64,000 bases of DNA from Gloeobacter morelensis MG652769 (GTDB taxonomy: Bacteria > Cyanobacteriota > Cyanobacteriia > Gloeobacterales > Gloeobacteraceae): the NCBI RefSeq assembly GCF_021018745.1, contig NZ_CP063845.1, positions 4,836,001 through 4,900,000 on the forward strand. The letters are read 5' to 3'. Shown piece by piece: positions 32,880-39,467 of the stretch. The notes beneath the pieces were generated by a model, which worked only from the letters and a program-made list of their open reading frames with translations, was not told the origin of the DNA and searched no databases. The translations under genes and the position numbers were made by a program. Positions within the stretch are counted from its first letter, which is position 1, and every line of letters starts with the position of its first letter.

Positions 32880-34148
32880 TTAGGGCAGCACTTGAAAATG
32901 CTTGGCACTGCTGGCGTTGCCGCCGGGGGTGACGACGGTGATTGGACCGCTGGCCGCCCCGGTGGGCACCACCACGCGCACAGAACGGCTGGAGACCGAG
33001 GTCGGAGTGCTCGACACGCCGCCGAATTTGACCGCGGTGGTGCCCTCCAGGCTGCTGCCGCGGAGGGTCACCCGGGTACCGACTGTGCCGGAGGTGGGGC
33101 TGAAGCTCGTCACCACGGGCAAAGGCTGTGGCGGCGGCGCAGCGTCGCCGTCCGAGAAACAGGCCCAGTCGCGCGCGTAGGACAGGGCTTCGTCGGTGGT
33201 CGGGGCGGTGTGGGGGTTCTCAACAGGGATGGTGATTTTGACCCAGTCGTTGTTGGGCTGGGTCTCGCTGGTCGATGGCACCATGCCCAAAGCGGCGAAG
33301 TTGGTGGTGATCTTCTCGTAGCCGTCCTCATCCTCGTGGACGATGCCCTTGAGCGAGGCGGTCGGTGTCTTCCAGGCGCCTTCGCTCAGCCAGGCGGCCG
33401 GGACGATCACCCCCGGGTCGTCGAAGGCATCTTTTTCGGTGACGGTGTCCTCCGGCGAGGCCATAAAGCACACCCGCTCAGTCAGAAAATCCCGCCCGAT
33501 ATAGCCCGCGTGGCCGCCCCCCTGGCTGCCGCCCCCGACGCGCACCTGGCTCCAGTCGACCGCAGTGCCCGCGAAGGCTGCCGGCAGGGCCGATGCCGGC
33601 TCGAAGTTCTCCTCCAAAAAATCCACCAGCGCGTCCATGCGGTTCAAGATGCTGTTGGCTGTGTTTACACTCACCTCCGGCGAAACCGCGTTGCCGTAGA
33701 TGACCTCCTGGCGCGCGAGCCCGTAGCAGGCGCTGTCGCCGCCGCACAACTGGCCGATCGTCTCCGGGTTGGCGTAAGCGAGGGCAATAAACAGAAAGTT
33801 GCGCGCCAGGGCATCTTCGAGAATCTGTCCCACGGAGTACCCGCCCGTGGCCTGATCGTAGGGTCTGGCCCCCGAACCCATCAAGTGCACGTAGACCCCC
33901 TGAATCCGGGTCGGATCGCCCGGAATGCCGACCACGTGATAGCCGTAACCTTTGCTGCTGGAACCGGCGTCTTGGATGGCCGGGTCGGTACGGCTCGGCT
34001 GGATGACGCAGCCGATGCCGCCGGTGACCGTCCGCTGGGTGTAACTGCCGGTTGGACACTCGGCCGCCCAGGCGCTTGAACTCATAAAAATACAGCAAAA
34101 TACTATAAAGCCGCGCAGCAAGCCGGCGGCCAGTGAAGCATCGTTCAT
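32880..34148 (-). CDS. Secreted alpha/beta hydrolase with C-terminal IPT/TIG domain
   Basis: A 422-residue exported protein. Signal peptide LLRGFIVFCCIFMSSSAWAA (about 10-29). The catalytic part (about 45-330) has GVYVHLMGSGARPYD, a GGGSQGG nucleophile-type elbow, and late acid/His regions, similar to the BPSS1187-type hydrolases. Residues about 345-422 (VTSFSPTSGTVGTRVTLRGS...) are an immunoglobulin-like IPT/TIG domain. Cysteines (CPTG, CVIQP, CGGDSACYG) suggest disulfides outside the cytoplasm. Substrate unknown. Starts upstream of 34148 add a non-signal sequence. Confidence 0.75.
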   Translation of the reverse strand: MNDASLAAGLLRGFIVFCCIFMSSSAWAAECPTGSYTQRTVTGGIGCVIQPSRTDPAIQDAGSSSKGYGYHVVGIPGDPTRIQGVYVHLMGSGARPYDQATGGYSVGQILEDALARNFLFIALAYANPETIGQLCGGDSACYGLARQEVIYGNAVSPEVSVNTANSILNRMDALVDFLEENFEPASALPAAFAGTAVDWSQVRVGGGSQGGGHAGYIGRDFLTERVCFMASPEDTVTEKDAFDDPGVIVPAAWLSEGAWKTPTASLKGIVHEDEDGYEKITTNFAALGMVPSTSETQPNNDWVKITIPVENPHTAPTTDEALSYARDWACFSDGDAAPPPQPLPVVTSFSPTSGTVGTRVTLRGSSLEGTTAVKFGGVSSTPTSVSSRSVRVVVPTGAASGPITVVTPGGNASSAKHFQVLP

Positions 34149-34433
34149 GGTCGAATCCTCGATAGCGATGGCGTTGGTCAGTACAGGCGGAAACCTCCGA
34201 ACGGTTCCGCTCGCGATAGGCACTTAGAAGCTGGTCAAAAACCGATAGCGTTCACCGATTGCTGGATGAGGCAAGCGGGCGGATAGAGGGTTACAGGTCA
34301 AACTCTACGGGCACTTTGCCCCCGGAATCTATCACTAAATAGGGGAAAAATATGTCGTGGCCTTTACCGTCCGCGGCGCTCCTCAGTGCGCAAAACCGGC
34401 TGCCGGCGGCGTCGCCGTCGTTCATGGACCCAT

Positions 34434-35291
34434 TTAGAACAAACTTTCGACTTCTTCAAGTTCGAGCAGCGGCGACTTGCCGACCCCGTCGGCGGCAAGG
34501 TGTACAGCATCGACAAACTGGCGGGTGCGGTGGGGGTCGATGGGCTGTTCGGGTTTGCCGAAGCGCTTGAGGGCGCTGGCGACGATCACGCCGTCGGCGA
34601 GGCCCAGCAGATCACCGGCATTGGCAGGGTCGGCCCCCGAACCGATCAAGATCGGCGCGTCGGGTACAGCGGCGCGGGCGGTGACGAGATCTTCGCGCCG
34701 GGGCGGGCTGCCGGTGGCCACCCCCGAGACGATAATGCCGTCCGCCAGCCCCCGCTCGACGGTGTCGCGGCAGGCCTGGAACAGATCGCCCGCCCCCAGA
34801 GGCGAAGCGTGTTTAACCAGGACATCGGCGAAAATGCGCGTTTCGGCTCCCAGTTCGCGCCGGTAGCGCAGCACCGAGTGCGCCTCACCCTGAATGATGC
34901 CCTGATCGGTAGCCATGGTGCCGGTGAGGATGTTCACCCGGATAAATTGGGCACCGGTGCAGGCGGCGACGGCGAGGGCGGCGTGGGCGTCGTTGCGCAG
35001 CACGTTGACGCCCACCGGCACCGGCACCAGGTGAATGATGCGCTTGACCACCAGGCTCATCGCCGCCACCACGGCCGGGTCGACGCGGCCGGGCACAAAA
35101 GGGGCGTCGTAATAATTTTCGACAATCAGCGCGTCCACGCCGCCGGTGGCGAGGGCGGTGGCCTCCTGTTCGGCGCGGGCCATCACCGCATCGAGCGAGC
35201 CGGCCCAGCGCGGCGCAGTCGGCAAGGGCAACAGGTGAACGACCCCGATGATCGGTTTGGCCGTCGAAAAGAGATCTAGCAAAAGTGACAC
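34434..35291 (-). CDS. btpA: BtpA-family photosystem I biogenesis protein
   Basis: A 285-residue TIM-barrel-like protein: PIIGVVHLLPLPTAPRW near the start, GGVDALIVENYYDAPF, and VPVGVNVLRNDAHAALAVAA, all typical of BtpA. In cyanobacteria BtpA stabilises the photosystem I reaction centre proteins on the thylakoid; homologues outside photosynthetic organisms are sgcQ-like. The last part (DAPILIGSGADPANAGDLL) is the phosphate-binding-like barrel loop. Divergent from the folK fusion gene. Confidence 0.88.
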   Translation of the reverse strand: MSLLLDLFSTAKPIIGVVHLLPLPTAPRWAGSLDAVMARAEQEATALATGGVDALIVENYYDAPFVPGRVDPAVVAAMSLVVKRIIHLVPVPVGVNVLRNDAHAALAVAACTGAQFIRVNILTGTMATDQGIIQGEAHSVLRYRRELGAETRIFADVLVKHASPLGAGDLFQACRDTVERGLADGIIVSGVATGSPPRREDLVTARAAVPDAPILIGSGADPANAGDLLGLADGVIVASALKRFGKPEQPIDPHRTRQFVDAVHLAADGVGKSPLLELEEVESLF

Positions 35292-35369
35292 ATGCAGCTC
35301 GCTGCTTCAGCGGTGCTGAAGAAAGATTCTCTCGAAATATATCCTGGGGGAAAAGAGAGGGCAACAGCC

Positions 35370-36362
35370 ATGGCCAGAGCAGCGATCGCGCTGGGCGCCA
35401 ATCTGGGTGAGCGCCTGGAGACGCTCACCCGGGCGGTGCGCTCGCTGCACCGTCCTGCGGGCGGTCTGGCGGTGACGGCGGTTTCGAGCTGGTACGAGAC
35501 AGAACCCGTCGGTCCGGTGCAACCGCTCTATATCAACGGTTGCCTGACCCTCCAGACGGAGCTGACCCCGGGGAGCCTGTTGGGCGAGCTGCAGCAGCGC
35601 GAGGCGGCGGCCGGGCGAACGCGCGCGGTGCCCTGGGGAGCACGCACGCTGGATCTCGACTTGTTGTGGTACGACGACTGGGTGCAGGCGGATGCTGTCC
35701 TGACGCTGCCCCACCCGCGCCTGGAGGAGCGTCCCTTCGTGCTGATACCGCTGGCCGAGATTGCCCGCGACTGGCGCCATCCGCTCACGGGCAAGCGCGT
35801 CGCCGACCTGGGCGCCGAGGTCTCAGCGCGGGGCGTGGAGCGCGTCGCGGAGCGGGCGCTGGTGGCCACTGCCCTCGGCCCGCTGGATCTCAGACCCCTC
35901 GCCCCGGCGGATCACCTGCCGCTCAGGGATCTGGCGGGGCGCTGCTGGTGGGCGACCTACCGGGGCCTGCTCGAAGACGAATATATCGAATCGTTCGTAG
36001 ACTACACCTACAACCTCGAAGCGATTGGCCGGGCTGCCGCCCGCCCGGACGGCCATTTTTGGGTGGCGGAGGAGCCGGAGGGCGCTCTGGTGGGTTTTAC
36101 CCAGGTGCTGGTGGTCGGGCGGGTCGCCCATCTCGCCCGCCTCTACGTGGCCCCCGAGGTTCAAGGCATCGGCATCGGTTCCGCCCTGTGGCGCCTGGTC
36201 CACAAAAAACTCGCCGCCCTCGGAGTGCGTGTGTGTAACCTGACGGTGCTTGCCACCAACATCGGCGCCATCCGCTTCTACGAGCGCAAAGGTTTTGAGC
36301 GCACCGGCAGCACCCCCGGCAACCGCTTTGAGTACCGCATCCGGATCGGGGGCGATGGCTGA
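35370..36362 (+). CDS. folK: FolK (HPPK) fused to a GNAT acetyltransferase domain
   Basis: A 330-residue fusion. Residues 1-158 are 6-hydroxymethyl-dihydropterin pyrophosphokinase: AIALGANLGERLETL, WYETEPVGP, PWGARTLDLDLLWYDD (HPPK signature) and LPHPRLEERPFVLIPLAEIA. Residues about 168-330 are a GNAT domain: LRPLAPADHLPLRDLAG, LYVAPEVQGIGIGSALWRLV (acetyl-CoA loop) and NIGAIRFYERKGFERTG. HPPK activates the pterin for folate synthesis; the acetyltransferase has no known link to it. The fusion is continuous, without a stop or weak linker. The stop overlaps the rnc ATG. Confidence 0.88.
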   Translation: MARAAIALGANLGERLETLTRAVRSLHRPAGGLAVTAVSSWYETEPVGPVQPLYINGCLTLQTELTPGSLLGELQQREAAAGRTRAVPWGARTLDLDLLWYDDWVQADAVLTLPHPRLEERPFVLIPLAEIARDWRHPLTGKRVADLGAEVSARGVERVAERALVATALGPLDLRPLAPADHLPLRDLAGRCWWATYRGLLEDEYIESFVDYTYNLEAIGRAAARPDGHFWVAEEPEGALVGFTQVLVVGRVAHLARLYVAPEVQGIGIGSALWRLVHKKLAALGVRVCNLTVLATNIGAIRFYERKGFERTGSTPGNRFEYRIRIGGDG

Positions 36363-37083
36363 ATCGGCTCTCACTCCCCTGCGAGTGGCCCAACTGCACC
36401 GCTTTGCCGCCCGATTCGCCCTTGCCGAACCGGAGGCTCTCGATTGGGAGTTGTTGCACAGGGCGCTCATCCACCCGAGCTGGTCCGCCCAGGAAGGCGG
36501 CGAGGACAACGACCGGCTCGAATTTTTGGGCGATGAAATCCTGCGGCTGTTGGCGGCGGAATTTTTGTACCGGGCCGACCCGGAACTGACGGTGGGCGAG
36601 ATGACCGCCGTGCGCTCGGTGCTGGTGAGCGATGTCGCCCTGGCCGGGCTGGCAGAAAGTTACGGGCTGGAGGAATTTCTGGTGGTGGGCCGCTCGGCAA
36701 GCGGCGATGAGCGCGGCCGGATTACCCGACTGGCGGACGGATTTGAGGCGGTGATCGGGGCGATGTATCTGAGTACCGGCGATTTGGGGCTGATTCGTCC
36801 GTGGCTTTTGCCCCAACTGGCGCGCCTCGCCGCAGCGGTGATGGCCGATCCGACCCGCGGCAACCACAAATCGGCGCTGCAGGAGCTGACCCAGAAGTTT
36901 GGCGCCGGCGAGTTGCCCGAGTACCGTCTGGTGGAGCCGGGGCCGCCCTTTCGCTACGAAGTCTGGGCGATGGGCCGCCTGTGGGGCAGCGGCGAAGGAC
37001 CGTCTAAAAAACTCGCCCAGCAGCGGGCCGCCCGGGGCGCCTACGCGGCGCTGCGCTCGGCCTTCGATACGGCGCTGCAGTAG
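36355..37083 (+). CDS. rnc: Ribonuclease III
   Basis: A 242-residue RNase III. NDRLEFLGDEILRLLAAEFL (about 51-70) is the catalytic signature, DGFEAVIGAMY the second acidic site, and the C-terminal NHKSALQELTQKFGAGELPE, GEGPSKKLAQQRAARGAYAA the double-stranded RNA-binding domain. Start 36355 overlaps the folK stop (ATGGCTGA). It processes rRNA precursors; cyanobacteria often carry several RNase III types, and this is the full-length one with the dsRBD. Confidence 0.93.
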   Translation: MAESALTPLRVAQLHRFAARFALAEPEALDWELLHRALIHPSWSAQEGGEDNDRLEFLGDEILRLLAAEFLYRADPELTVGEMTAVRSVLVSDVALAGLAESYGLEEFLVVGRSASGDERGRITRLADGFEAVIGAMYLSTGDLGLIRPWLLPQLARLAAAVMADPTRGNHKSALQELTQKFGAGELPEYRLVEPGPPFRYEVWAMGRLWGSGEGPSKKLAQQRAARGAYAALRSAFDTALQ

Positions 37084-37109: not shown

Positions 37110-39467
37110 ATGCTCGCCTTTGAGATCCTGCAGAGCTTTGTCAACTTCCTGGGTTTCCTGTTATTGATCCTCGTGCAGGGGATGGTCTTTGCCTTCGCCT
37201 ACTTGCTCATTTTCGTAGGCGGCACGGGGCTGGGCAAAGGGGCGAAAGCGCGCCGCCCAAGCAGCGGTGGGCCTCTGGCACGCTGGTTGGGGCGCTACCG
37301 CGAGGGCGAGCGCGACCGGGAGGTGCGCTTCTGCGACATCGTCGGCCTCGAAGAAGCGAAGCAGGAACTCGAACAACTGGTCGACGTGCTCAAACACCCC
37401 GAAGCCTACCGGGCGGTGGGGGCCGAACCGCCCCGGGGGGTGCTGCTGGTAGGACCGCCGGGCACCGGCAAGACGATGATCGCCCGCGCCATCGCCAACG
37501 AGGCGGGGGTGCCGTTCTTTAGTCTGGCGGCGGCGGATTTTGCGAATATGTTTTTGGGCGTCGGTTCCCAGCGCATCCGCCAGATCTACCGCACCGCCCG
37601 CCGCCACCCCAGGGCGATCGTCTTTATCGACGAAATCGAAGTGCTCGCCAAAGCGCGCGGCACGGGCCTCGGCACCTTCGAGGGCGACAGCAACACCCTC
37701 AACGCTTTTCTTAACGAACTGGACGGCTTTGCGATCAACCCCGGGGTGATCACGATCGGAGCCACCAACCTCGAAGATCAAGTCGACGCGGCGGTCATGC
37801 GCCCGGGCCGCCTCGACTGGCAAATTTATATCGGTCCGCCTGCGGAGGCCGATCGCGAAAAACTGTTTCGGTTCTATCTGGAGCGCACCCAAAACGCCGC
37901 CGACCCGGCGGCGGCTGCCAAGCTCGCCGTCAACTTCACCCCCGCCGAAATTCGCCGGGCGGTCAACGAGGCGGGTCTGCTCGCGGTGCGCGGCGGGCGG
38001 GCCGCGATTGCCGACTCTGACCTCACCGCCGCCGTCGACAAGGTTTCAGCCACCCTCGAGCGGCGCAGCGGTACCTTTGTCATCGGCCGCTCCGGCGATC
38101 TGGGGGTGCGGCTGGCCGAGGTGATCGGCTGCGAGGAAGCCAAAGGCGAGGTGCAGGAATTTATCGATTTTTTGCGCTCCCCGGATCGCTACCGCCGCAT
38201 CGGCGCCAAGGTGCCCAGGGGCTTTTTGTTTGTCGGTCCCCCGGGTACCGGCAAGACGCTCCTGGCCAAGGCGATCGCCAACGAGGCGGGGGTGCCCTTT
38301 TATGCCCTGTCCGGCTCCGATTTCACCGAAGTCTGGGTGGGATTGGGAGCCTCCCGCGTCCGCCAGGTCTACCGCCAGGCGCGCAAGCACAAGGCGGCCA
38401 TCGTCTTTATCGACGAAATCGACGCCCTTGCCGCCCGCCGGGGGCTCGATTCGAGCGGCGAAGCCGACCGCACCCTCAATCAATTTCTGGTCGAACTGGA
38501 CGGCTTCGGCCGATCCAACGTGCTCACCATCGGCGCCACCAACCGCCTCGACACCCTCGATGCGGCCCTGTTGCGGCCCGGCAGGCTCGATCGCACCGTG
38601 GCGGTGCCGCTGCCGGATCTCGATGCGCGCGAGCGGCTTTTTGCCCACTACCTGTCTGGGGTGCAGTCGGTAGACGGGATCAACTGCCGCCAACTGGCCC
38701 GCGCCTCCTGGAACATGTCGGGGGCGGAGGTGGCGGCGAGCGTCAACGAAGCCAGTTTCATCGCCGTGCGCGACGGGCGCGAGCAAGTCACCCAGTTCGA
38801 CCTCAACCAGGGCATCGAGCGGGTGCTCTTTGGTCTCAATTCCCGGCGCAAAGTCAACGCCGAGGACCGGCGCCTCGCGGCCATCCACGAGGCGGGCCAT
38901 GCCGTAGTCGAATACCACGCCCGCCCGCGGCGCATCCTGCACAAGCTCACGATCATTCCGGATCTGGAGGGTACCGCCGGGTACAGCTGGTCGATTCAAG
39001 ACGAGGAGCAACTGTCCTTTGAGACGTGCGAGGGGATCCGCGCCGAAATCCAGGTGCTCTTCGGGGGCCGGGTGGCGGAGGAGTTGTTCTACGGCACCGT
39101 CACCACCGGGGCGAGCGCCGATCTGGCCCGGGCCGCCCACCTCGCCCACCGCTACGTCTGGCAGTTGGGGATGGGCGAAGAATTCTTGGCCGACTATGCG
39201 CAGATGGCCAGGGAGGCGGCGGGCGGCCGGGTAATCTCTGAGCGCACCAAAGAGCGCCTCGACCTCGCAGTCGAGAAACTGCTGCGCGAAGCCAAAAGTG
39301 AAGCGCGCACCATCCTCGAAGCGCACCGCGACGAGCACGAGCGGCTCACTGCCGTCCTATTGGAGCGCGAATCGCTCTACGGCGAAGACATCCTGCGGGT
39401 GCTGCGCGGCGAGACTATCGAGCCTTCCGGGCGCGCCGCCTACAAAGACGACGGCGGCGATGGCTGA
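37110..39467 (+). CDS. FtsH-like membrane protease with two AAA modules
   Basis: A 785-residue protein. One TM segment near the N-terminus (about 9-37). First AAA module with Walker A LLVGPPGTGKTMIARA (about 112-127), Walker B AIVFIDEIE and RPGRLDW. Second AAA module with FLFVGPPGTGKTLLAKA (about 372-388), AIVFIDEIDALAARRG and LLRPGRLDR. Then an M41 zinc protease domain with HEAGH at 593-597 and TGASADLARA. Normal FtsH has one AAA module after a periplasmic domain and two TM helices and is about 620-650 residues. Here the extra AAA module replaces the periplasmic loop. Both ATPase sites look intact. Ends overlapping the TPR gene (ATGGCTGA). Confidence 0.88.
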   Translation: MLAFEILQSFVNFLGFLLLILVQGMVFAFAYLLIFVGGTGLGKGAKARRPSSGGPLARWLGRYREGERDREVRFCDIVGLEEAKQELEQLVDVLKHPEAYRAVGAEPPRGVLLVGPPGTGKTMIARAIANEAGVPFFSLAAADFANMFLGVGSQRIRQIYRTARRHPRAIVFIDEIEVLAKARGTGLGTFEGDSNTLNAFLNELDGFAINPGVITIGATNLEDQVDAAVMRPGRLDWQIYIGPPAEADREKLFRFYLERTQNAADPAAAAKLAVNFTPAEIRRAVNEAGLLAVRGGRAAIADSDLTAAVDKVSATLERRSGTFVIGRSGDLGVRLAEVIGCEEAKGEVQEFIDFLRSPDRYRRIGAKVPRGFLFVGPPGTGKTLLAKAIANEAGVPFYALSGSDFTEVWVGLGASRVRQVYRQARKHKAAIVFIDEIDALAARRGLDSSGEADRTLNQFLVELDGFGRSNVLTIGATNRLDTLDAALLRPGRLDRTVAVPLPDLDARERLFAHYLSGVQSVDGINCRQLARASWNMSGAEVAASVNEASFIAVRDGREQVTQFDLNQGIERVLFGLNSRRKVNAEDRRLAAIHEAGHAVVEYHARPRRILHKLTIIPDLEGTAGYSWSIQDEEQLSFETCEGIRAEIQVLFGGRVAEELFYGTVTTGASADLARAAHLAHRYVWQLGMGEEFLADYAQMAREAAGGRVISERTKERLDLAVEKLLREAKSEARTILEAHRDEHERLTAVLLERESLYGEDILRVLRGETIEPSGRAAYKDDGGDG

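Follow-up and report, generated by a model that had tools for sequence, protein, structure and literature searches.

We analysed a window of 64,000 nucleotides, the whole stretch of DNA under study (G000:C1:4836001-4900000 of a 5.1 Mb genome), in which a single open reading frame encodes one chain consisting of a complete HPPK (FolK) followed by a GNAT acetyltransferase domain (Table 1). The maximal open reading frame begins at an ATG at position 35292, and the start common to the relatives is the one at 35370. On one side lies a btpA-family gene and on the other rnc, whose first 8 bases are also the last 8 of the fusion gene; by reading, the rnc start at this overlap is an ATG in five family genomes and a candidate GTG in the sixth (G005). 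The order btpA (other strand), fusion gene, rnc is the same in all six genomes of the family, which comprise that of the window and five others (G001-G005) and represent three genera. The spacer separating btpA from the fusion gene, conserved in part around TATATCCTGGGGGAAAA, is a possible promoter or leader element. Beyond rnc, the window encodes an FtsH-like protein of 785 residues (37110-39467, forward strand), in which, by reading, two AAA modules (two GPPGTGKT motifs) precede one HEAGH peptidase motif. Such a protein also follows rnc in loci L001, L077, and L078, and no match to it was obtained in the short remaining stretches of L079 and L080. A 447-residue protein (32880-34223, reverse strand) carries a C-terminal IPT/TIG domain and is otherwise unmatched in Pfam at E ≤ 0.001.

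Table 1 Coordinates of the fusion gene, its domains, and the adjacent features in the window
Feature	Coordinates	Strand	Basis
FolK-GNAT fusion CDS, 330 aa	35370..36362	+	Pfam/NCBIfam; present over its full length in all 6 family genomes
HPPK (FolK) domain, residues about 4-158	35379..35843	+	Pfam, alignment, structural match
Interdomain linker, residues 159-169	35844..35876	+	Codon alignment
GNAT domain, residues 170-326, PaiA-like, loop QGIGIG	35877..36347	+	Pfam, alignment, structural match
rnc (ribonuclease III)	36355..37083	+	Pfam; gene order shared by all 6 family genomes
btpA-family gene, divergent neighbour, family-conserved	34434..35291	-	Pfam, synteny
78-base spacer between btpA and the fusion gene	35292..35369		Stretch around TATATCCTGGGGGAAAA, conserved in part across the six family genomes

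The preliminary description had recognized a full HPPK and a full GNAT domain in one chain, and both Pfam and NCBIfam bear this out. The HPPK profile (PF01288) matches residues 6-132 with an E-value of 2.5e-36 (125 bits, cut-off 25.7) and the Acetyltransf_1 profile (PF00583) matches residues 200-309 with an E-value of 2.7e-17 (63.5 bits, cut-off 20.7); both domains are matched in all six fusion proteins, and the folK equivalog TIGR01498 scores the fusion protein at 119.3 bits against a cut-off of 54.1. In sequence comparisons with solved structures, the first half resembles HPPKs, and the second is most similar to an N-acetyltransferase from Thermoplasma, other entries of which are named PaiA. 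An AlphaFold2 model of the whole protein, built from 36 alignment rows, reached a pLDDT of 93.9 and a pTM of 0.89, an earlier model from 6 rows having been poor (pLDDT 64.8). Of the chains compared, the predicted HPPK half superimposes best on the HPPK of S. aureus (5etq; Z 27.8, rmsd 1.2 over 156 residues), and the predicted GNAT half, with a structural match spanning residues 170-326, on PaiA of T. acidophilum (3f0a; Z 25.2, rmsd 1.0 over 155 residues, 29% identity), followed by B. subtilis PaiA (1tiq, Z 21.9), 3fnc (21.7), LcGNAT (8osp, 21.3), and RimI (2cnm, 19.4). The C-terminal half thus has both features of the GNAT superfamily, a PF00583 match over the cut-off and the GNAT fold. Production of two separate polypeptides through an internal start was considered and rejected: in the codon alignment of the six fusions, two GTG codons of the window gene, 165 (G003 has CTC GTT there) and 156, are not kept, and the linker holds no start codon common to all six.

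HPPK is needed for folate synthesis, and because the HPPK family matches only once in the genome, so that the fusion chain is its single FolK, this pathway should depend on the HPPK half. Twelve ATP/Mg and pterin residues of this half (N11, Q51, Y54, N56, E78, R83, W89, R92, D95, D97, H115, and F123) are invariant in all six fusions; their E. coli equivalents, assigned by reading, are N10, Q50, Y53, N55, E77, R82, W89, R92, D95, D97, H115, and F123, which, according to the structure titles, are positions mutated in solved HPPK structures. In its whole domain, catalytic residues, fold, and single genomic copy, this half is like other HPPK/FolK proteins, from which the chain differs by the GNAT domain added at the C-terminus. 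Sequence and fold identify the N-terminal half as the cell's HPPK, which would pyrophosphorylate 6-hydroxymethyl-7,8-dihydropterin for folate synthesis. The genes folB and folP, which the preliminary description had advised looking for, are separate single-copy genes at distances of about 330 kb and 1.4 Mb, and neither is joined to the fusion.

For the GNAT half, the closest proteins of solved structure are of the PaiA type. In LcGNAT, a PaiA-like enzyme, Glu92, Tyr97, and Tyr142 matter for activity as judged by mutagenesis (excerpts of PMC10416765). Positions 92, 97, and 142 of B. subtilis PaiA are likewise Glu, Tyr, and Tyr and correspond, in a profile alignment and by our own count, to His254, Tyr259, and Tyr304 in the fusion protein. 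Tyr259 and Tyr304 are invariant in all six fusions, that is, the tyrosine pair of PaiA/SSAT is present. By contrast, the catalytic Glu, which occupies this position in T. acidophilum PaiA, 3fnc, and B. subtilis PaiA (alignment without 8osp), is replaced by His in five fusions and by Leu in that of G004 (L022:2257-2259). The acetyl-CoA loop QxxGxG is kept in five of the six proteins and reads QGHRLG, with Arg for the first Gly, in G004 (L022:2290-2307); the loop of T. acidophilum PaiA, EYTHKKIGK, is similarly unusual. Given the loop change in G004 and the replacement of the PaiA Glu, some members may have changed activity or none, and the G004 fusion is possibly an inactivated one.

The PaiA proteins of B. 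subtilis and T. acidophilum are counted among spermidine/spermine acetyltransferases in the excerpts of PMC4964394 and PMC8076852. With PaiA-type GNATs (3f0a/3k9u, 1tiq, LcGNAT 8osp), the fusion shares the fold and the two key tyrosines; unlike them, it has His or Leu in place of the Glu and is joined to FolK. Because the catalytic Glu is replaced, we do not call the GNAT half a spermidine acetyltransferase or file it as PaiA. Judged from its sequence, it probably works like a PaiA-type acetyltransferase, and the modelled fold suggests that its substrate is probably a small amine and probably not a folate. As a PaiA-like GNAT, the C-terminal half would bind acetyl-CoA and acetylate an amine, probably a small molecule, outside the folate path.

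The fusion protein matched 57 of 59 relatives and did so over its full length in six, namely the genome of the window and G001-G005, in which the identities are 90, 96, 67, 50, and 57%, respectively (locus L001, at 97% identity, and G002 were counted as one genome). The search of the remaining 53 relatives yielded no full-length fusion: 51 match the HPPK half only, some of them partly and separate GNATs elsewhere in the genome aside, and two (G045 and G049) gave no match. Three outgroups of the same order (G006-G008) have stand-alone FolK proteins of 165, 167, and 155 residues in other surroundings, and the stretches around their folK genes contain no GNAT match, the contig of G006 ending about 500 bases after folK so that its downstream side is hardly seen. 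A tree built from 36 HPPK domains unites the fusions with support of 96/94 and in 95% of the 200 bootstrap trees, all values being rough; it places none of the three outgroups with them and gives no firm nearest neighbour.

Among 289 genomes from the phylum of G631, 205 were matched at E ≤ 1e-30; none of the matches listed extends past profile position 195, and the one reaching it reads through three stops. None was found at E ≤ 1e-43 in samples of 279 and 43 genomes, which, having no positive control, show little. A survey with HPPK matched 373 of 388 genomes, frame lengths being known for the matches listed, and in seven stretches with long frames, crude patterns detected both motifs together in none (L119 and L121 gave nothing). 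Plasmid records match in 75 cases, none covering over 80% of the fusion. The GNAT profile matched 212 of 386 genomes of the phylum, a sample that left out the other family genomes (G001-G005), at E ≤ 1e-8; since the fusion of the window scores 302 bits and the next best match 71.5, no close stand-alone copy of this GNAT was seen among them. This is a genuine fusion of long standing, maintained in one small early-branching cyanobacterial family. Its distribution suggests that the GNAT domain would have been joined to folK once, before the family diversified.

Selection was assessed by the Nei-Gojobori method over the 15 pairs of the six fusions, with the HPPK and GNAT parts taken apart; dS is saturated in many pairs. 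The dN/dS ratios are 0.12-0.26 for the HPPK part (14 of 15 pairs computable) and 0.20-0.45 for the GNAT part (10 of 15 pairs computable, the other five, all with G004, being saturated), and both domains are under purifying selection. In three close pairs, the ratio is 0.13-0.17 for HPPK vs. 0.41-0.45 for GNAT, a difference partly due to few silent changes, since in these pairs the GNAT part has a smaller dS than the HPPK part, which inflates its ratio. The pair formed by the window fusion and G003 is reversed (GNAT 0.200, HPPK 0.262). The GNAT part has the higher dN in 14 of the 15 pairs, and this domain is probably somewhat less constrained than HPPK. The suggestion that the fusion may be neutral appears too weak for the GNAT domain, given its presence in all six family genomes and the ratios below 1 in all 10 computable pairs, and holds at most for the act of joining itself, which could have been neutral. 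The conserved fusion may reflect linked chemistry or may simply be tolerated.

We consider it reasonably likely that the chain is bifunctional, combining FolK with a PaiA-like acetyltransferase that has an unrelated substrate, the two having been joined once. The two domains presumably have unrelated substrates, and each would act alongside the other instead of in successive steps. According to the preliminary description, the GNAT half might act on a pterin or folate intermediate, a proposal for which we obtained no support, the closest solved relatives being PaiA-type acetyltransferases. More broadly, a role in folate metabolism, in which the GNAT half acetylates such an intermediate or lysines of HPPK and thereby ties folate output to acetyl-CoA, appears quite unlikely: although both parts are kept in one chain throughout the family, the two-domain model as a whole has a high pTM, and the replaced Glu leaves room for a substrate other than that of PaiA, the structural relatives speak against it, as do folB and folP, which lie elsewhere in the genome and are not joined. 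Nothing points to a folate-directed acetyltransferase beyond the fusion itself. There is a slim chance that the His-for-Glu GNAT constitutes a lineage-specific, acetyl-CoA-dependent folate control or side branch by acetylating a pterin-pathway intermediate or the HPPK half, in which case folate output would follow acetyl-CoA.

A GNAT half that is catalytically dead or nearly so, retained as a structural or dimerising appendix of FolK, is unlikely, too. The PaiA Glu is absent from all six proteins, the G004 loop is altered, and dN is elevated relative to HPPK, all as such a scenario would have it; against it stand the invariance of both catalytic-type tyrosines, the acetyl-CoA loop kept in five fusions, and the GNAT dN/dS ratios below 1. 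It is very improbable that the GNAT half is the RimI of the cell, the acetyltransferase of ribosomal protein S18, carried beside rnc. RimI is indeed the best NCBIfam match among acetyltransferases (47.8 bits), but this identity was rejected because the fusions score 49.6-57.5 bits, below the TIGR01575 cut-off (86.4 bits), and a separate gene exceeding that value is present in all six family genomes. As to a sequencing or assembly artefact joining two genes, the preliminary description had stated that its own observation would be refuted if the relatives had the genes apart and a sequencing change had joined them here; instead, the same join recurs in all six family genomes at 50-96% identity, within the conserved order btpA/fusion/rnc, and three of the six carry it on contigs of 4.6 Mb or more, so that we rejected this explanation as scarcely conceivable. 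The bifunctional chain, with an acetyltransferase probably serving a substrate unrelated to folate, is the reading we retain.

Fusions of FolK are known, and the statement that its partners are FolB or FolP agrees with print: folK-folP, folB-folK, and folB-folK-folP are described in the excerpts of PMC1971073 and PMC4224340. As in these, FolK is here one part of a longer chain; unlike in these, where, according to the same excerpts, the partners are other folate-synthesis enzymes, the GNAT is not one. Among the titles and passages listed by searches of the open-access literature, we recognized no description of a FolK-GNAT fusion, and protein databases may well list the architecture. The fusion is a new pairing of known parts, in which FolK gains a partner that does not belong to folate synthesis and has been retained across an early-branching cyanobacterial family.

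The genomes outside the family show a different partner. Of the 53 non-family relatives, 49 have both folK and a Nudix gene (best Nudix match only); the two are no more than 2 kb apart in 29 of these and on different draft contigs in several of the rest, and in G021 and G053 FolK and Nudix form one chain. The partner there is at the same end of FolK as the GNAT, but is a NudE-like Nudix hydrolase, although far below the NudE cut-off (78.1 bits in G021 and 83.1 in G053 vs. 169), and no GNAT is present. The cyanobacterial folK loci concerned are L023-L076 and L087-L088, examples being L036:913-2037 (reverse strand) and L029:1423-2520 (forward strand). In the fusion-family genomes, no Nudix gene was found within 2 kb of folK, and these genomes have distant Nudix genes only, with 33-41% identity at best. 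The excerpts of PMC1971073 state that the gene for FolQ, responsible for the dihydroneopterin-triphosphate step, is missing in most genomes and that the enzyme is a Nudix protein where known; for this reason, the folK-adjacent Nudix protein is a candidate to fill the FolQ gap in cyanobacteria or to catalyse some other linked step. Together, the fusion and the frequent folK-Nudix neighbourhood suggest that this side of folK gathers partners. The FolK frame of G330 (L122, from base 1205, forward strand) encodes 288 residues, of which the about 100 that follow the HPPK part look neither GNAT- nor Nudix-like by eye, making it a further possible FolK fusion.
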